Part shown: piece by piece, positions 24,970 to 32,913 of the stretch | Numbering within the stretch: the first letter of the stretch is position 1 | Layout: the number at the start of each line of letters is the position of its first letter | Assembly (NCBI RefSeq): GCF_019264375.1 | Contig: NZ_JAHVAI010000008.1 | Coordinates: forward strand, 1 to 64,000 | DNA from: Sedimentimonas flavescens | Lineage (GTDB): Bacteria; Pseudomonadota; Alphaproteobacteria; Rhodobacterales; Rhodobacteraceae | Reading direction: 5' to 3' | Length of the DNA: 64,000 bases | Position numbers and translations under genes: made by a program | The notes under the pieces: model-generated | What the model was told of the DNA's origin: nothing | What the model saw: only the letters and a program-made list of their open reading frames with translations | Databases searched by the model: none

Positions 24970-25842
24970 TCAGGCGCGCCGCGCGTCATTGACGAGGCGG
25001 TGGATCATCGGCGTGAAGATCAATTGCATGGCGAGGTCGAGCTTGCCGCCGGGGATCACGATGGAATTTGCCCGGCTCATCCAGCTGCCCTGGATCATCG
25101 AGGTCAGGTAGGGAAAGTCGATGCCGCGCGGGTTGCGAAAGCGGATCACCACAAGGCTTTCATCCGCCGTCGGGATCCAGCGCGCGATGAACGGGTTCGA
25201 GGTATCAACGACCGGCACGCGCTGAAAATTTACATCCGTTTCAGTGAATTGCGGGCAGATGCAGTGCACATAGGCGTGCATCCGGCGCAGGATCGTGTCG
25301 GTCACGGCCTCGGTCGAGTAGCCCCGGCTGGCCTTGTCACGATGGATCTTCTGAATCCATTCGAGGTTGATGACCGGCACGACCCCGATCTTGAGATCGG
25401 CATGCGAGGCGATGTTCACATCGTCATTGACGACGGCGCCATGAAGGCCCTCGTAGAACAAGAGGTCCGAGCCATCCTCGAACGCCTCCCATTTGGTGAA
25501 CTTGCCCGGCGCGGTGCCCCTGCGTTCGGCCTCGCGGTCGTCATGGACGTAATGGCGGGTTTCGCCCCGGCCCGTCTCGCCATAGGTACGAAAAACCTCT
25601 TCGAGCTTGGCCAGTTCATTGGCCTCGTAGGAAAAATGGCTGAAGGTTGCGTCGCCGGCAGCCGTGCGGGCCTCAAGCTCGGCCTTCATCGCGGCGCGGT
25701 CGTAGCGGTGGAAGGCGTCGCCCTCGATGGAAACCGCCTTGATCCCCTCGCGGCGAAAGATCTGGTCGAAGGTCGATTTGACCGTCGTGGTGCCAGCCCC
25801 CGACGAGCCGGTCACCGAGATGACAGGGTGTTTCTTGCTCAC
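24970..25842 (-). CDS. prk: phosphoribulokinase
   Basis: 290-residue proteobacterial-type phosphoribulokinase (CbbP) that makes ribulose 1,5-bisphosphate. The P-loop is GSSGAGTTT at residues 12-20, with Thr where most P-loops have Lys-Ser, as in characterised Rhodobacter enzymes. Catalytic region [11 protein letters not shown] and [12 protein letters not shown] are intact. The start is GTG 25842, with GAGGA 9 bases upstream and 11 bases after the fbp stop. The bacterial octameric type is usually activated by NADH. Confidence 0.95.
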
Positions 25843-25853
25843 TTTGTTGATCC

Positions 25854-26861
25854 TCAGACTCGGAAAAGGCTGCGTTCAGAGAAGAGCGCCGATGTCTCGG
25901 CGGGGGGCAGATCGTGGTAGACGGTGACCCGGTCCATCTGGGCGGGCGACCCGAAGATCAGCGGCACACGCTCGTGCAGGTCCTCGACGCGCTGATCCAT
26001 GATGGCCAGCAACCCGTCGCTGGCCTTGCCCCCGGCCTGTTCGATGACAAAGGCGATGGGGGCGCATTCGTAAAGCATCCGCAGGCGGCCCCGCGTATAG
26101 CCACGCCGCGCGTCACCGGGGTAGAGGAACAACCCGCCACGGGTCAGGATGCGGTGCGTCTCGGCCACCAGCGAGGCGATCCAGCGCATGTTGTAATTGC
26201 GCGCATGCGGCCCCTCTTCGCCCGCCAGGCAGTCGTCGATATAGGCGCGGATCGGCACCGGCCAGTGGCGGTAGTTCGAGGCATTGATGGCGAACTCACC
26301 CGATTGCTCGGGCAGGCACAGATGGTCTTGCGCCAGTTCGAAGACCTGCGTTTCGGGGTCGAGCGTGTAGTAGCGCACGCCCTGCCCGAAAGTGACGATC
26401 AGCGAGGTCTGCGGCCCGTAGATGATATAGCCCGCCGCGATCTGGTCGCGGACCCGGCGCAGAAAGCTGGCCTCGGCGCCCCCACAGGCTTCGTAGATCG
26501 AAAAGATCGTACCGATCGAGACGTTGACGTCGATGTTCGACGAGCCATCAAGCGGGTCGATGGCCAGCGCAAGGTGGCCCGTGGGCTCAAGCTCGACGAT
26601 CTCCTCGCGCTCTTCCGAAGCGAAGTAGCGCACGCCCGTCCCGCTCAGCGCCGCGGCGAAGGCGGTATCGGCCAGCACATCCAGCGCCTTTTGCCCGTCG
26701 CCACCGGTGTTGGTGCCCACGTTGCGCCCAAGCGAGGCACCAAGCGGGCCGCGGGCAATCTGCCGCGACAGGCTGCGCCCGACCGAGCAGAGCGCGCTGA
26801 TCGCAGGCAGCAATGCGGTGGGTATCCCCTCGGGGGAAATCGGCGCGATCGTCGAACCCAT
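25854..26861 (-). CDS. fbp: fructose-1,6-bisphosphatase, class I
   Basis: 335-residue phosphatase (CbbF), first gene of the Calvin operon. Metal/active-site motif [12 protein letters not shown] and the acidic ASEEREEI segment are intact; [15 protein letters not shown] and [16 protein letters not shown] form the sugar-phosphate pocket. Many Cbb enzymes of this type also hydrolyse sedoheptulose bisphosphate, which this operon would need, since no separate SBPase is present. ATG 26861 follows a GGGAGGAAG ribosome site. The promoter is shared with divergent cbbR. Confidence 0.95.
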
Positions 26862-26964
26862 GGCTTCCTCCCAAGCTGATTTCGGCGTTTCGTTGAGCTG
26901 ACGCTTGCATGGGGTTTGTTTTTATGAAATTTAAAAGAAAGGAATTCCTCTTAAATAAAATCTA
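26862..26964. promoter_or_regulatory. divergent cbbR / cbb-operon promoter with CbbR-type site
   Basis: 103 bases, AT-rich from about 26920. It holds TTA-N7-TAA at 26922-26934, matching the CbbR/LysR-type TNA-N7-TNA rule, with further T-N11-A matches nearby. A perfect 10-base palindrome AGGAATTCCT lies at 26940-26949. Position between cbbR and cbbF is where CbbR binds in related bacteria. Exact promoter boxes are not assigned. Confidence 0.6.
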
Positions 26965-27891
26965 ATGATAGACCCTGACCGCATAAAGCTCAGCCAGTTG
27001 CGCGCCCTTGTGGCGGTGGTCTCGGATGGCTCGATCACCGGGGCGGCCGAGCGGCTGAACCTGACCGCACCAGCCATCCATACCCAGTTGAAATTGCTTG
27101 AAGATACCGTCGGAACGGCGCTGCTGAACCGCACCAGGGGCCAAGCAATGACGCTGACCGAGGCCGGGCAGGTTCTGTTCGACGCCGCCGCGCGGATCGA
27201 GGGGGAGCTGACGCGCGCCCTGCGCGACATTGTCGCAGTTCAGGAGGGGCACGAGGGCCGCGTGCATCTGGGCGTCGTGTCCACCGGCAAGTATTTTGCA
27301 CCGGGAATCGTGGCTGCGATGCGCAAGTGCTGCCCCGGCATCGACGTGCGCCTGTCGATCGGCAACCGGCAAGAGATCATCCACGCGCTCGACACCCGCA
27401 CCCTGCACCTGGCGATCATGGGGCGGCCGCCGCGCACGCCCTCGGTCATCGCCGAGCGGCTGGGCAACCACCCCCATGTCATCATCGCCGCGCCGGACCA
27501 CCCCTTGGCCGGGATCGGCGAAGTGCCCGACGCCGCGCTGCTGCGCGAAACCTTCATCATGCGCGAGGAAGGCTCGGGCACACGCATTCTGGCGAACCGG
27601 TATCTTGACCGGATCGGCAGCGGTCAAGGCTACGGCAGCATCGTCATGGACAGTAACGAGACGATCAAGCAGGCGGTGATCGCCGGCCTCGGGATCGCGC
27701 TAATCTCAGAGCATACCGTGATCGAGGAGTTGCGCAGCCGCAGGCTGGTCCGCCTGCCCGCCAAGGGGCTGCCATTGATCCGCGAATGGTACATCCTGCA
27801 CACGAGCGACACGCCCCTGACCCCGGCCGCCACACGCATTCAGGACGAGATCCTCGCCATGAATGGCTCTTACCTGCCGCATCTGGATTAA
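26965..27891 (+). CDS. cbbR: LysR-family regulator of the Calvin operon
   Basis: 308 residues. N-terminal LysR helix-turn-helix (about residues 8-65: LSQLRALVAVVSDGSITGAA, then LNLTAPAIHTQLKLLEDTVG) and a C-terminal effector domain containing GIALISEHTV. The alternation of helix SITGAAERL with APAIHTQLK is the CbbR pattern. Divergent from cbbF with the operator between them, so it most likely activates the cbb operon in response to metabolites such as RuBP or NADPH, and represses itself. ATG 26965 has only a weak ribosome site, consistent with low expression. Confidence 0.93.
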   Translation: MIDPDRIKLSQLRALVAVVSDGSITGAAERLNLTAPAIHTQLKLLEDTVGTALLNRTRGQAMTLTEAGQVLFDAAARIEGELTRALRDIVAVQEGHEGRVHLGVVSTGKYFAPGIVAAMRKCCPGIDVRLSIGNRQEIIHALDTRTLHLAIMGRPPRTPSVIAERLGNHPHVIIAAPDHPLAGIGEVPDAALLRETFIMREEGSGTRILANRYLDRIGSGQGYGSIVMDSNETIKQAVIAGLGIALISEHTVIEELRSRRLVRLPAKGLPLIREWYILHTSDTPLTPAATRIQDEILAMNGSYLPHLD

Positions 27892-28809: not shown

Positions 28810-29844
28810 ATGAAGCTCAAGATCGCCGCCCTGTTGTGCGCCCTGCTTGCCGCTGCGAGCGGCGCGCAGGCGCAAGATCAGATCCGCGAGGAAAGCGTGG
28901 CCTTTCCCGCAGGTCAGACAGGAACGCGCCAGAGCGGCACGATCACCGGATACGATGCGGTCTCTTACATGATCGGTGCGGAAGCCGGGCAGCGCATGGT
29001 GCTTGGCCTCGAAGCCTCCAACAACCAGACCTTTTTCACGGTATTCGGCCCCGGTCAGGCGCCGGGGGGCGCGGGGCTTGCCGCAAGCGACCTGACCGGC
29101 CCCATGGTGCCCGAGATTAATCGTTTCGACGTGACGCTGGACACCTCGGGCTATTACCGTGTGCTTGTCTATCAGATGCGCAATGCGGCGCGGCAGGGGC
29201 TGAGCGCGTCCTATACGCTCGATATCGCCGTGACCGGCACGACAGGCGCGATTGTCGAAGGCGACTTTGCCGACGGGCTGGCGGGTGGCCCGGATTACTA
29301 CGCCGTGCGCACCGCAATGCCGGGCGGCTCGCTGAATATACGGCAGAGCGCCAGCGCGGGTGCCGCGATTCTGGGTCAGGCGGCGAACGGGGCGCAACTG
29401 CGCAACCTCGGCTGCCGGATGGCCGAGGGGCGGCGCTGGTGCCGTGTCGCGACGCTTTCCGACCCCCGGCTGGAGGGGTGGGCCGCAGGCGAGTTCCTGA
29501 TCGAAGGCAGCGGCCCGATCGAGCCCGACATGACGCCCCTGCCCGCCGAACAGGACGCCATGGTCCCCGGCACCGCGTTCCACGCCACCGGGCCGCTCCC
29601 CTGCCAGCGCGACGGAATGGCGGCCGAGTGCACCTTCGGCGTAATCCGCGCAGGCAATGGCAATGGGCGCGTTGTCATCTCATGGCCCGACGGCAGCAGC
29701 CGGGAGATCACCTTCGAGGGCGGTCTCCCCACCGCATCGAACGCCGACGCCCCCATGATCGTGACGCGTGAGAGCGACAGGACAATCCTCACCATCGGGC
29801 CCGAGTTCTACGACATCCGCGATGCGGTGATCTGGGGCGGCTGA
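28810..29844 (+). CDS. secreted SH3b-domain protein
   Basis: 344 residues with a Sec signal peptide (cleavage after SGAQA). Residues about 20-150 form a pre-peptidase-like region with segments such as YMIGAEAGQRMVLGLEA and GYYRVLVYQM. A bacterial SH3 domain follows near 165-225 (SLNIRQSASAGAAILGQAAN, then GWAAGEFL), then a C-terminal region with paired cysteines (PCQRDGMAAECTFG). It likely acts in the periplasm or binds peptidoglycan. ATG 28810 has a GGAGGG ribosome site. Function is otherwise unknown and the gene stands alone. Confidence 0.7.
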   Translation: MKLKIAALLCALLAAASGAQAQDQIREESVAFPAGQTGTRQSGTITGYDAVSYMIGAEAGQRMVLGLEASNNQTFFTVFGPGQAPGGAGLAASDLTGPMVPEINRFDVTLDTSGYYRVLVYQMRNAARQGLSASYTLDIAVTGTTGAIVEGDFADGLAGGPDYYAVRTAMPGGSLNIRQSASAGAAILGQAANGAQLRNLGCRMAEGRRWCRVATLSDPRLEGWAAGEFLIEGSGPIEPDMTPLPAEQDAMVPGTAFHATGPLPCQRDGMAAECTFGVIRAGNGNGRVVISWPDGSSREITFEGGLPTASNADAPMIVTRESDRTILTIGPEFYDIRDAVIWGG

Positions 29845-30036
29845 GCGCCGCACTCAGATCCAACGCCGAAGCCCTGCGCCAACCGCTTCGCGGCCACGTC
29901 CGACACAAGAACGCGCTCAACTTCATCAGCGTGGCGCCCAAGTGATCGAAAATTGTGCAGCACCGACTTTTTCGCGCAGGCAGCATTTTGCTGCGATTGC
30001 ACGGTATGCATCTTCATATGAAATAAAAGGCGAACG

Positions 30037-30104
30037 GGTCCGGCAACGGTGTCGGCCCAACTGATCGCCCGAAAGGGCCCGCAGCAACGGCGCTGCATCT
30101 TTTC
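30037..30104 (+). ncRNA. nirB leader with paired ANTAR-type hexaloop hairpins and attenuator
   Basis: Two hairpins carry six-base loops of the A-x-x-G-x-x type recognised by ANTAR proteins such as NasT/NasR. Hairpin 1: CCGGC (30040-30044), loop AACGGT, GTCGG (30051-30055), extended by a GG/CC pair with a bulged T. Hairpin 2: GCAGC (30081-30085), loop AACGGC, GCTGC (30092-30096), followed by ATCTTTTC, so it can double as an intrinsic terminator. Between them is a GNRA-capped hairpin (GCCC-GAAA-GGGC, 30067-30078). In Klebsiella and Paracoccus such leaders let NasR/NasT prevent termination upstream of nitrate/nitrite assimilation genes. No nasS/nasT gene is in the window. Confidence 0.75.
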
Positions 30105-30148
30105 CCGAACCCGGCCGGTTTCCGGCCCTGGCGAAGATGGAGTGCCAC

Positions 30149-32596
30149 ATGTCCAAGCAGCGACTCGTCATCATCGGCAATGGTATGGCCCCCGGCCGTA
30201 TGCTCGAACATCTCTTCGAGGTGAGCGACGCCTTCGAGGTGACGATTTTCAACGCAGAGCCCCGCGTGAACTACGACCGCATCATGCTGTCGCCGGTTCT
30301 GTCGGGCGAGAAAACCTATACCGACATCATCATCCACGGCGAAGGCTGGTACGCAGAGCGCGGCATCACCCTGCACAAGGGCGAGAAAATCGTGCAGATC
30401 GACCGCGACGAGCGCAAGGTCGTCTCGGACAAGGGCACTGTCGCGCATTATGACCGGCTGGTGATCGCCACCGGCTCGTCCCCCTTCATCATCCCGGTGC
30501 CCGGCTCTGACCTGCCCGGCGTACTGGCCTATCGCGATCTCGACGATACCGAGGGCATGATTGCCGCCTCGACGAAAGGCGGGCGCGCCGTGGTTATCGG
30601 TGGCGGCCTCCTGGGCCTTGAAGCCGCCGCAGGCCTGAAGCTGCGGGGCATGGAGGTGACCGTCATCCACCTGATGCCGACGCTGATGGAGCGCCAGCTG
30701 GACAGCGCCGCAGGCTACCTGCTGCAACGCGAGCTTGAAGGCCGCGGCATCGAGGTGCTCTGCCAGGCCAACACCAAGCGCATCATCGGCACCGACCGAG
30801 TCGAAGGCGTGGAGCTGGCCGACGGCCGCATCATCGACGCCTCGCTGGTCGTGATGGCCGTGGGTATCCGTCCGAACGTCAAACTGGCGCAAGAGGCCGG
30901 GCTGGCCGTCAACCGTGGCATCATGACCGATGCGACCATGCGCACCTCGGACCACTCGATCTACGCGGTGGGCGAATGCGTCGAGGTCGGCGGGATGGTC
31001 TATGGCCTCGTCGCCCCCCTCTACCGCATGGCCAAGGTCGCCGCCGAGCATCTGGCCGGCCCGTCGAAGGCCGAGTTTGCCCATGCCGAGACCCCGACAA
31101 AGCTCAAGGTCACCGGCGTGAACCTCTATTCGGTGGGCGATTTCGCCGAAGGCCCCGACCGCGAGGATATCGTGCTGCGCGATGCAGCACGCGGCAGCTA
31201 CAAGCGCGTAATCCTCAAGGATAACAAGATCATCGGCGCTGTTCTTTACGGCGATGTCGCCGATGGCGGCTGGTATAACGAGATGCTGAAATCCGGCGAG
31301 GACGTCGAAGGAATGCGCGAGACGCTGATCTTCGGGCAGGCCTATCAGGGCGGCGGTAATGCTGACCCGCTGGCCGCCGTGGCGAGCCTGCCCGACGATG
31401 CCGAGATCTGCGGTTGCAACGGCATCACCAAGGGCCAGATCATGGCCGCGATCCGCGACAAGGGCCTGACCTCGCTGGCCGAGGTGCGCGCGCATACCAA
31501 GGCCTCGGCCTCCTGCGGTACCTGCACGGGGCTCGTCGAGAATGTCATGGGCCTGACGCTTGGCGATACCTTCGTCATCCCACAGGCTGCCGGCATGTGC
31601 CCCTGCACCACGCATGGCCATGGCGAGGCGCGCCGCCTGATCCGCGCCAAGGGGCTGAAATCCATCCCCGCCGTGATGCAGGAGCTGGAGTGGTCCACCC
31701 CCGAGGGCTGCGCCAAGTGCCGCCCCGCGCTGAACTATTACCTCGTGTGCGACTGGCCGGGAGAATACACGGATGATCAGCAATCGCGCTTCATCAACGA
31801 GCGTGTGCACGCCAACATCCAGAAGGACGGCACCTATTCGGTCGTGCCGCGCATGTTCGGCGGCCTGACCACCGCCGATGAGCTGCGCGCCATCGCGGAT
31901 GTGGCCGATCGCTACAGCATCCCCACGATCAAGGTCACCGGCGGCCAGCGCATCGACCTTCTGGGCGTGAAGAAGGAAGACCTGATCCCGGTCTGGAAGG
32001 ATCTCAACGACGCCGGGATGATCTCGGGCGCGGCCTATTCCAAGGGTCTGCGCACGGTCAAGACCTGCGTCGGCAAGGATTTCTGCCGCTTCGGCACGCA
32101 GGACTCGATGGGCCTGGGCGTCAAGCTTGAGAAGTTCCTCTGGGGTTCGTGGTCGCCCGCCAAGCTCAAGCTCGCAGTCACCGGCTGCCCGCGCAACTGC
32201 GCCGAGGCGACCTGCAAGGACATCGGAGTGATCTGCGTCGATAGCGGCTACGAGATCGTCTATGGCGGCGCGGCGGGCCTGCATATCCAGGGCACCACCA
32301 AGCTTGGCAACGTCAAGACCGAGGCTGAGGTGATCGAGGTCATCGGCGCCATGACCCAGATGTATCGCGAGCAGGGCTTCTACCTGGAGCGCATCTACAA
32401 ATGGGCCGAGCGCGTGGGCTACGAGCACATCAAGGACGTGATCCTGAACGACCTTGAGGCGCGCAAGGCCTTTTACGACCGCTTCGTCTATTCGCAGCAA
32501 TTCGCGCAGACCGACCCCTGGGCCGAGCGCGTCGCGGGCGCCGAAGCGCATGAATTCAGCAACATGGCAGAAATCAAACTGGAGGCCGCGGAATGA
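30149..32596 (+). CDS. nirB: assimilatory nitrite reductase large subunit
   Basis: 815-residue NAD(P)H-dependent siroheme nitrite reductase (also called NasB), reducing nitrite to ammonium. N-terminal FAD/NAD domains (IIGNGMAPGRMLEHL at 5-19; VVIGGGLLGLEAAAGL near 150), BFD-like 2Fe-2S region (CGCNGITKGQ and CGTCTGLV near 420-455), then the siroheme/4Fe-4S domain with C-x5-C (TCVGKDFCRFG) and C-x3-C (TGCPRNCAEA). All cofactor cysteines are present. Start 30149 (MSKQRLVIIG) has GGAG 7 bases upstream, giving about 45 bases from the leader hairpins. It overlaps nirD by four bases. Confidence 0.96.
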   Translation: MSKQRLVIIGNGMAPGRMLEHLFEVSDAFEVTIFNAEPRVNYDRIMLSPVLSGEKTYTDIIIHGEGWYAERGITLHKGEKIVQIDRDERKVVSDKGTVAHYDRLVIATGSSPFIIPVPGSDLPGVLAYRDLDDTEGMIAASTKGGRAVVIGGGLLGLEAAAGLKLRGMEVTVIHLMPTLMERQLDSAAGYLLQRELEGRGIEVLCQANTKRIIGTDRVEGVELADGRIIDASLVVMAVGIRPNVKLAQEAGLAVNRGIMTDATMRTSDHSIYAVGECVEVGGMVYGLVAPLYRMAKVAAEHLAGPSKAEFAHAETPTKLKVTGVNLYSVGDFAEGPDREDIVLRDAARGSYKRVILKDNKIIGAVLYGDVADGGWYNEMLKSGEDVEGMRETLIFGQAYQGGGNADPLAAVASLPDDAEICGCNGITKGQIMAAIRDKGLTSLAEVRAHTKASASCGTCTGLVENVMGLTLGDTFVIPQAAGMCPCTTHGHGEARRLIRAKGLKSIPAVMQELEWSTPEGCAKCRPALNYYLVCDWPGEYTDDQQSRFINERVHANIQKDGTYSVVPRMFGGLTTADELRAIADVADRYSIPTIKVTGGQRIDLLGVKKEDLIPVWKDLNDAGMISGAAYSKGLRTVKTCVGKDFCRFGTQDSMGLGVKLEKFLWGSWSPAKLKLAVTGCPRNCAEATCKDIGVICVDSGYEIVYGGAAGLHIQGTTKLGNVKTEAEVIEVIGAMTQMYREQGFYLERIYKWAERVGYEHIKDVILNDLEARKAFYDRFVYSQQFAQTDPWAERVAGAEAHEFSNMAEIKLEAAE

Positions 32597-32913
32597 ACGC
32601 CCCGCTCAGAAACTGGGTCGCGATCGGCTCGATCAACGACATTCCGCGCCAGGGCGCGCGTTGCGTGAAGAACGGCGAGATGACCATCGCGGTTTTCCGC
32701 ACCTCGGACGACCAGGTCTTCGCGCTCGAAGACAAATGCCCGCACAAGAATGGGCCGCTCAGCCAGGGGATCGTGCATGGCGGATGCGTCACCTGCCCCC
32801 TGCACAACTGGGTGATCTCGCTCGAAACCGGCGCCGCGCAGGGTGCCGACGAAGGCCAGACCGCCTCCTTCCCCGTCAAACTCGACGGTCAGACCGTACT
32901 GCTTGGTCTCTGA
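32593..32913 (+). CDS. nirD: nitrite reductase small subunit (Rieske type)
   Basis: 106-residue partner of NirB. The Rieske ligands are complete: CPH in DKCPHKNGP and CPLH in VTCPLHNWV, which supports a bound 2Fe-2S cluster; some enterobacterial NirD proteins have lost these residues. The ATG overlaps the nirB stop (ATGA), so the two are translationally coupled. In Paracoccus-type nas operons the next genes are a formate/nitrite transporter and a nitrate reductase; here only a fragment of the transporter remains. Confidence 0.94.
   Translation: MNAPLRNWVAIGSINDIPRQGARCVKNGEMTIAVFRTSDDQVFALEDKCPHKNGPLSQGIVHGGCVTCPLHNWVISLETGAAQGADEGQTASFPVKLDGQTVLLGL

Follow-up and report, generated by a model that had tools for sequence, protein, structure and literature searches.

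Our analysis identifies the leader of nirB, with very high confidence, as a NasT/ANTAR leader, that is, as a predicted target of the regulator NasT. The best explanation of how it works, which we favour with moderate confidence, is that NasT relieves the sequestration of the nirB Shine-Dalgarno (SD) sequence, the SD region being predicted to pair with a strand that forms part of the receptor structure itself. We infer that NasT binds at nirB, that its effect there is positive, and that it acts on translation and not on elongation. A second element of the same kind is found in the same genome before the nitrate-transporter gene nrtA, and we tentatively propose that, in a group of Rhodobacterales, one NasT would act through the same kind of three-hairpin receptor in two ways, by antitermination at nrtA and by activating translation at nirB. 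What departs from the ordinary in this proposal is that a single regulator would have two output platforms within one genome.

The nirB leader and its putative partner proteins

The window (the whole stretch of DNA analysed, 64,000 nucleotides) lies on contig C61, one of the 62 contigs of a 3.4-Mb draft genome; judged by NirB, the closest named relative of this genome is Sinirhodobacter sp. WL0062 (locus L003, 98%). On its forward strand it carries nirB, for the nitrite reductase large subunit (30149..32596; TIGR02374, 882.6 bits, above the cut-off, as translated from 30137), and nirD, for the small subunit (32593..32913; TIGR02378, 98.9 bits, above the cut-off). The start of nirB was taken to be the ATG at 30149, with GGAG at 30139-30142, rather than the ATG at 30137, because an in-frame ATG at the equivalent place is present in just three of the 15 short leaders defined below (the window, L003, and L007). 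A site scan found no sigma-70-type promoter site at the nirB leader. By eye, a recurrent TGCTGC-NN-YTGC-like motif, a possible activator site, was noticed upstream of P1 in several nirB and nrtA leaders (the window at about 29979-30004, L160, L161, L164, and L181); in the window and L003 it adjoins a perfect palindrome, GCAGCA-TTT-TGCTGC, and L002 and L175 carry TGCTGC-ATG/GAG-GCAGCA. Near nirBD, at 24970-27891, the window also holds phosphoribulokinase-like and fructose-bisphosphatase-like open reading frames (ORFs), recognised by eye, and a LysR regulator.

Three hairpins make up the receptor. P1 (30040..30055, forward strand) reads CCGGC-AACGGT-GTCGG, with its hexaloop at 30045-30050 and an outer extension of GGG (30036-30038) and CCC (30056-30058) containing one bulged T. 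P2 (30081..30096, forward strand) reads GCAGC-AACGGC-GCTGC, with its hexaloop at 30086-30091, and is directly followed by ATCTTTTCCC, which starts at 30097. Both hexaloops have A at position 1 and G at position 4, so that the leader fits the dual hexaloop definition, which asks for a pair of hairpins, each at least 3 bp long, with A1/G4 loops of six bases. The fold of the leader is better than that of its shuffled versions (z -2.9, 1 of 200 as good). A search of the window against Rfam gave no family over its gathering score; the best match within 29700-30500, ALIL, scored 12.2 bits where the gathering score is 50.

The middle hairpin, GCCC-GAAA-GGGC (30067..30078, forward strand), occupies the 25-base linker between P1 and P2, a layout that the nrtA leaders share. 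The initial annotation described it as a GNRA hairpin, which is accurate for the GAAA loop of the window and applies also to L003 (GAAA) and L114 (GCAA), but other loops are found in most of the 32 leaders folded; the hairpin mostly stands just before P2, and since its sequence and loop vary, GNRA is not a conserved feature. Its base pairs are formed in 38-70% of the aligned cells, a count that suffers from the variable length of the linker, and for this reason the hairpin was judged by an alignment-free shuffle test of the linker. The linker folds better than the shuffle mean in 29 of the 32 nirB and nrtA leaders (mean z -1.5) and is individually significant at p<0.05 in 10 of them, a modest signal; the window is at p=0.025, and in L017 the linker forms no hairpin. 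The middle hairpin could be a spacer that brings both hexaloops within reach of a NasT dimer.

Among the 15 NirB loci with at least 76% identity (L003-L017), a simple scan recovers the hexaloop pair in 14, and 14 match covariance model R1, most of them being members of its training set; L015 has neither the pair in the scan nor an R1 match. To avoid this circularity, model R2 was built from 30 leaders of other genomes, none from the present genome or L003, with the middle hairpin left unmodelled. With R2, the top two of 150 scored candidates in the genome are the nirB leader (42.8 bits, E 9.5e-8) and, after it, the nrtA leader at C56:133374-133440 (37.7 bits, E 1.8e-6), the third candidate reaching only E 0.176; R1 puts the same two sites on top. 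Across 149 genomes of the family and under stricter filters, R2 matched at least 25, which is a lower bound because that search missed the nrtA site of the present genome.

Covariation points in the same direction. In the P1 helix 88.1% of cells are paired and five of six pairs have changed on both sides, and in the P2 helix 97.2% are paired and four of five pairs have changed on both sides. Covariation scores 0.432; shuffles give 0.183, and slid partners do not exceed 0.088. It is important to consider that the 44 distinct sequences were aligned to R1, hence fitted to the model structure, and that relatedness and a structure-fitted alignment both inflate such counts; the slid-partner control argues against inflation as the whole cause. 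A1 and G4 are invariant columns in both hairpins over 32 and 30 leaders, which were picked for having the motif. The two hexaloop hairpins that the initial annotation had noticed are present, conserved, and covarying; the loops are retained in close relatives, and the covariance search that it had suggested ranks the leader at the top.

Some further sites touch on the same element. Additional R1 matches upstream of the nirB leader, possibly extra ANTAR targets, occur in L009 (550-609, E 3.3e-5) and L012 (377-433, E 0.003). In the long leaders L010, L011, L012, and L016, the 3' half of P1 and the bases that follow it pair with a downstream TGACAGAAA(T/C)CGCCGCGGC, with 0-3 of 100 shuffles as good; among the 18 leaders tested, this anti-P1 pairing is strong in some long leaders and absent from that of the window. 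In the nirB leaders L018-L082 (65 rhizobial and other loci), the hairpin pair was found in two, with 4-bp stems about 240 bases upstream, and was taken as noise.

The predicted protein partners are encoded in the same genome. A single protein matches the ANTAR domain (75.4 bits), together with a receiver-domain match of 22.0 bits that falls under the cut-off of 30.2. The solved structures that match it best are 1s8n (a putative antiterminator), 6wsh (a response regulator), which we take to be EutV, and the C-terminal part of 4akk (a nitrate regulatory protein), presumably NasR. The first of these is Rv1626 (PMC8934654). The gene lies on contig C56, outside the window as the initial annotation had supposed, and adjoins a gene for an NMT1_2 protein of the NasS type; further downstream are a second NMT1_2 protein, a permease, a two-domain ABC ATPase, an FAD protein like the NirB N-terminus, and a molybdopterin oxidoreductase. 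The names nasT, nasS, nrtABC, and nasC used here are assignments from domains and gene order. With these domain-based names, nasS and nasT are adjacent and close to genes for nitrate uptake and reduction, as in a NasST regulon. An ANTAR protein is likewise present in all 15 genomes of L003-L017, and three of these relatives (G412, G416, and G417, the genomes of L005, L009, and L010) have a second, more distant one at 39-43 bits. The FAD protein (C56:127798-129099; L002 5751-7094, minus strand) is 59% identical to the N-terminal part of NirB and, standing beside the molybdopterin oxidoreductase gene, is probably the electron-donor subunit of that enzyme. Conserved and covarying loops and stems, the NasT- and NasS-type genes, and the second element before nrtA jointly support the view that the nirB leader is an ANTAR target.

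Output of the nirB leader

The structure predicted to compete with P2 involves the start of nirB. Its 5' arm (30089..30102, forward strand) consists of the last three bases of the P2 hexaloop, the 3' arm of P2, and the next six bases; its 3' arm, GAAGATGGAGTGCC (30133..30146, forward strand), includes the presumed SD sequence; and an apical hairpin, GGCCGG-TTT-CCGGCC (30113..30127, forward strand), is enclosed between them. We call this the OFF helix, and 13 of its 14 positions pair in the window. It was studied in 15 short leaders (the window, L003, L004, L007, L015, and L159-L168), in which P2 stands about 60-74 bases before the AUG. This group was chosen by hand after the folds had been seen, although it coincides with a gap in the distance between P2 and the AUG, which is 102-138 bases in the long leaders, and its members are related to one another and hence not independent. 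In the minimum-energy folds of all 15, the 3' side of P2 is in a helix with the AUG region (in L015 partly beyond it). Forcing P2 to form costs 0.2-9.3 kcal/mol over the 15 leaders and 4.7 in the window, so the competing helix is favoured in the absence of protein, as a NasT-dependent switch would need. When placed in another stretch, L160 folds with P2 and not with the OFF helix, its two states being otherwise 0.2 kcal/mol apart.

The main rival to SD sequestration at nirB, which we regard as unlikely although it is the strongest competitor, is the canonical NasT antitermination that the initial annotation had proposed: an attenuator overlapping P2 would stop transcription before nirB unless NasT binds. 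It could take the form of an intrinsic terminator, at P2 with ATCTTTTC or at the OFF hairpin, or of Rho-dependent termination on the untranslated message. This mode of NasT action is the one described, in the parts of the papers drawn on here, at nirBD of Pseudomonas (PMC12830290) and at nas leaders (PMC3795266, PMC5424462), and it agrees with the UUUU that follows P2 in the window and L003 and with two long-leader relatives, L008 and L142, which have four and five U in the eight bases after a P2-overlapping hairpin. However, terminator-like sites of the P2 plus ATCTTTTC kind are at chance level (one found, against a shuffle mean of 0.6, sd 0.8), and in the other 13 of the 15 short leaders no four consecutive U stand between P2 and the AUG (longest run 2-3); with its U run not conserved, P2 plus ATCTTTTC was rejected as an intrinsic terminator. 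Moreover, NasT would stabilise P2 as a terminator rather than prevent it, and the start codon comes 2-5 bases after the OFF hairpin in 14 of the 15 short leaders; L165-L167 do have four U in the eight bases after the hairpin, but these bases include the start codon. A hairpin that takes up the P2 3' arm and ends in a U tract was thus not found at the nirB leader. The earlier proposal is supported for the NasT target and not supported for the overlapping attenuator and for the release of NasT preventing termination before nirBD: in the folds it is the nirB SD region that competes for the 3' side of P2, and a P2-overlapping terminator is seen at nrtA instead.

A quite improbable alternative is that the leader is an ANTAR target in which pairing of the SD arises by chance or as a by-product of GC richness, the output mechanism being another. 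Against it, the duplex between the P2 arm and the SD region in the window has an energy of -24.5 kcal/mol that none of 1000 shuffles equals, and of the 80 SD-bearing starts in the window one reaches this energy, presumably that of nirB itself. In 13 of the other 14 short leaders, 2-98 of 1000 shuffles do as well, with L160, L161, and L163 at the weak end (79-98), whereas L015 fails, its duplex being no better than shuffles (735 of 1000 as good). A second contrast also speaks against chance: all 14 short leaders scored have the sequence G[C/T]GCC, complementary to GGCGC of P2, next to the SD, and none of 13 long ones does. This count omits the repeat genomes L005, L006, L014, L085, L087, L113, and L169-L171, as well as L145 and L172 (the latter a match without N-terminus and with an internal stop); L009 and L015 were entered but do not count, no SD having been recognised in either.

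Evidence against the favoured switch, some of which would also fit chance pairing, comes from the folds and from the outer part of the helix. When P2 is enforced, pairing of the SD core, measured as four bases, rises in nine of 14 leaders (from 0.75 to 0.90 in the window) and falls in five (L003, L007, L165, L166, and L167), so the fold model shows no open ON state; the calculation is at equilibrium, on GC-rich RNA extended by 60 bases of coding sequence and with neither protein nor ribosome, and carries little weight in either direction. In the OFF helix, the six outermost pairs are nearly invariant (L004 and L007 have G-C in place of G-U, L160 has a single mismatch, and L015 does not fit), and because they hardly vary, covariation gives no support to the outer helix; the inner pairs are in different registers in different groups. 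For L159-L164 the pairing of the SD core with the P2 arm reaches just 0.05-0.14, the flanks being paired and the core lying largely in an internal loop.

It is highly improbable that NasT binding represses nirB translation, as binding is reported to do at mycobacterial ANTAR RNAs; in actinobacteria such RNAs often overlap the ribosome-binding site (RBS) or start codon (PMC8164766, from the part drawn on here). In the nirB leader 42 bases separate the end of P2 from the SD, which thus lies outside the dual hairpin, and a nitrate-repressed assimilatory nitrite reductase would presumably run counter to the nrtA leader of the same genome.

The nrtA leader and the proposed mechanism

The second ANTAR element, matched by both R1 and R2, stands before the nitrate-transporter genes (C56:133374-133440; L002 11375-11441, minus strand of L002), between nasS and those genes, and possesses a middle hairpin. 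The transporter ORF as listed starts at a TTG upstream of the element, and the likely start is the ATG at L002 11286, after it. Here a strand farther downstream, itself followed by six U, pairs with the hexaloop and 3' arm of P2. We examined 15 stretches downstream of nasS (L002 and L175-L188, with the genomes of L014, L159, L161, and L163-L168 excluded) and found a U tract of at least five behind a hexaloop P2 in 13; of the two remaining, L183 has U4 and in L184 no element was found. In all 12 nrtA leaders folded (12 of the 13 with a U tract, L187 and L183 being left unfolded), a hairpin begins inside the P2 hexaloop and ends in 6-8 U. Seven of these 12 belong to genomes that have a short nirB leader (those of the window, L003-L007, and L015). 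By these folds, the nrtA leader has the predicted layout of standard antitermination.

For nirB, the SD sequestration that we favour would operate as follows, with the biochemistry of NasS and NasT carried over from the Paracoccus papers. Without nitrate or nitrite, NasS would hold NasT, and the loop and 3' arm of P2 with the following bases (30089-30102) would pair with 30133-30146, locking the nirB SD. With nitrate or nitrite present, NasS would free NasT, which would hold P1 and P2 and make the 3' arm of P2 unavailable to the OFF helix; with that helix lost, the ribosome site would open and nirBD would be translated. The same NasT would act on the nrt/nas operon by ordinary antitermination.

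Comparison with known NasT and ANTAR systems

The known roles of ANTAR RNAs are those of antiterminator sites and, in actinobacteria, of sites where translation is repressed. If the present reading is true, the nirB leader would be a translation-activating ANTAR RNA that coexists with the ordinary version in a single genome and serves the same protein; this would show a modular receptor and an expression platform that differs between orthologous leaders. It would also provide a testable cis-element candidate for the post-transcriptional nitrate control of Nas proteins that has been proposed in Paracoccus (PMC5424462). Among the open-literature matches listed, we found no ANTAR RNA that activates translation, an absence that carries little weight. 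The comparisons that follow draw on parts of the cited papers.

A parallel in gene order is offered by Paracoccus denitrificans, which also has a NasS/NasT pair upstream of its nas genes and a leader with hairpins. NasT binds its nasA leader (PMC3795266), which contains the hairpins HI and HII, HI being needed for induction (PMC5424462). In that organism, however, a single leader with termination serves the whole nas operon, and the nrtA leader described here is its positional counterpart. Nitrate control at the translational level has been proposed there as well, with no RNA element named in the part of the paper drawn on here (PMC5424462). The NasT-controlled nirBD leader of Pseudomonas (NalA) shares the regulator, the nirBD target, and a leader RNA with a competing hairpin (PMC12830290). 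NalA is described as working by transcription termination behind a sigma-54 promoter, whereas the nirB leader of our study has no terminator above chance and a competing helix that includes the SD region.

The ANTAR motif, as defined by Ramesh et al. in 2012, consists of two hairpins with six-base loops, A at position 1 and G at position 4 (PMC3369931), and in these two small hairpins the nirB leader resembles the EutV and NasR ANTAR RNAs. In those RNAs, unlike the nirB leader, P2 overlaps an intrinsic terminator. In the case of EutV, whose RNAs have P1 and P2 a short distance apart, lengthening the linker by 20 nt abolishes antitermination (PMC8934654), whereas the linker of the nirB leader is 25 bases long and holds a third hairpin. 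The same 2012 study suggested that some ANTAR RNAs lacking a terminator act on translation initiation, with an example in its Figure S3 (PMC3369931). As regards position at a translation start, the nirB leader resembles the actinobacterial ANTAR RNAs, nearly 37% of which overlap an RBS or start codon (PMC8164766). In actinobacteria it is the dual hairpin that covers the RBS or AUG, and its binding is reported to be repressive, whereas at nirB binding is predicted to activate by removing the partner that sequesters the SD.
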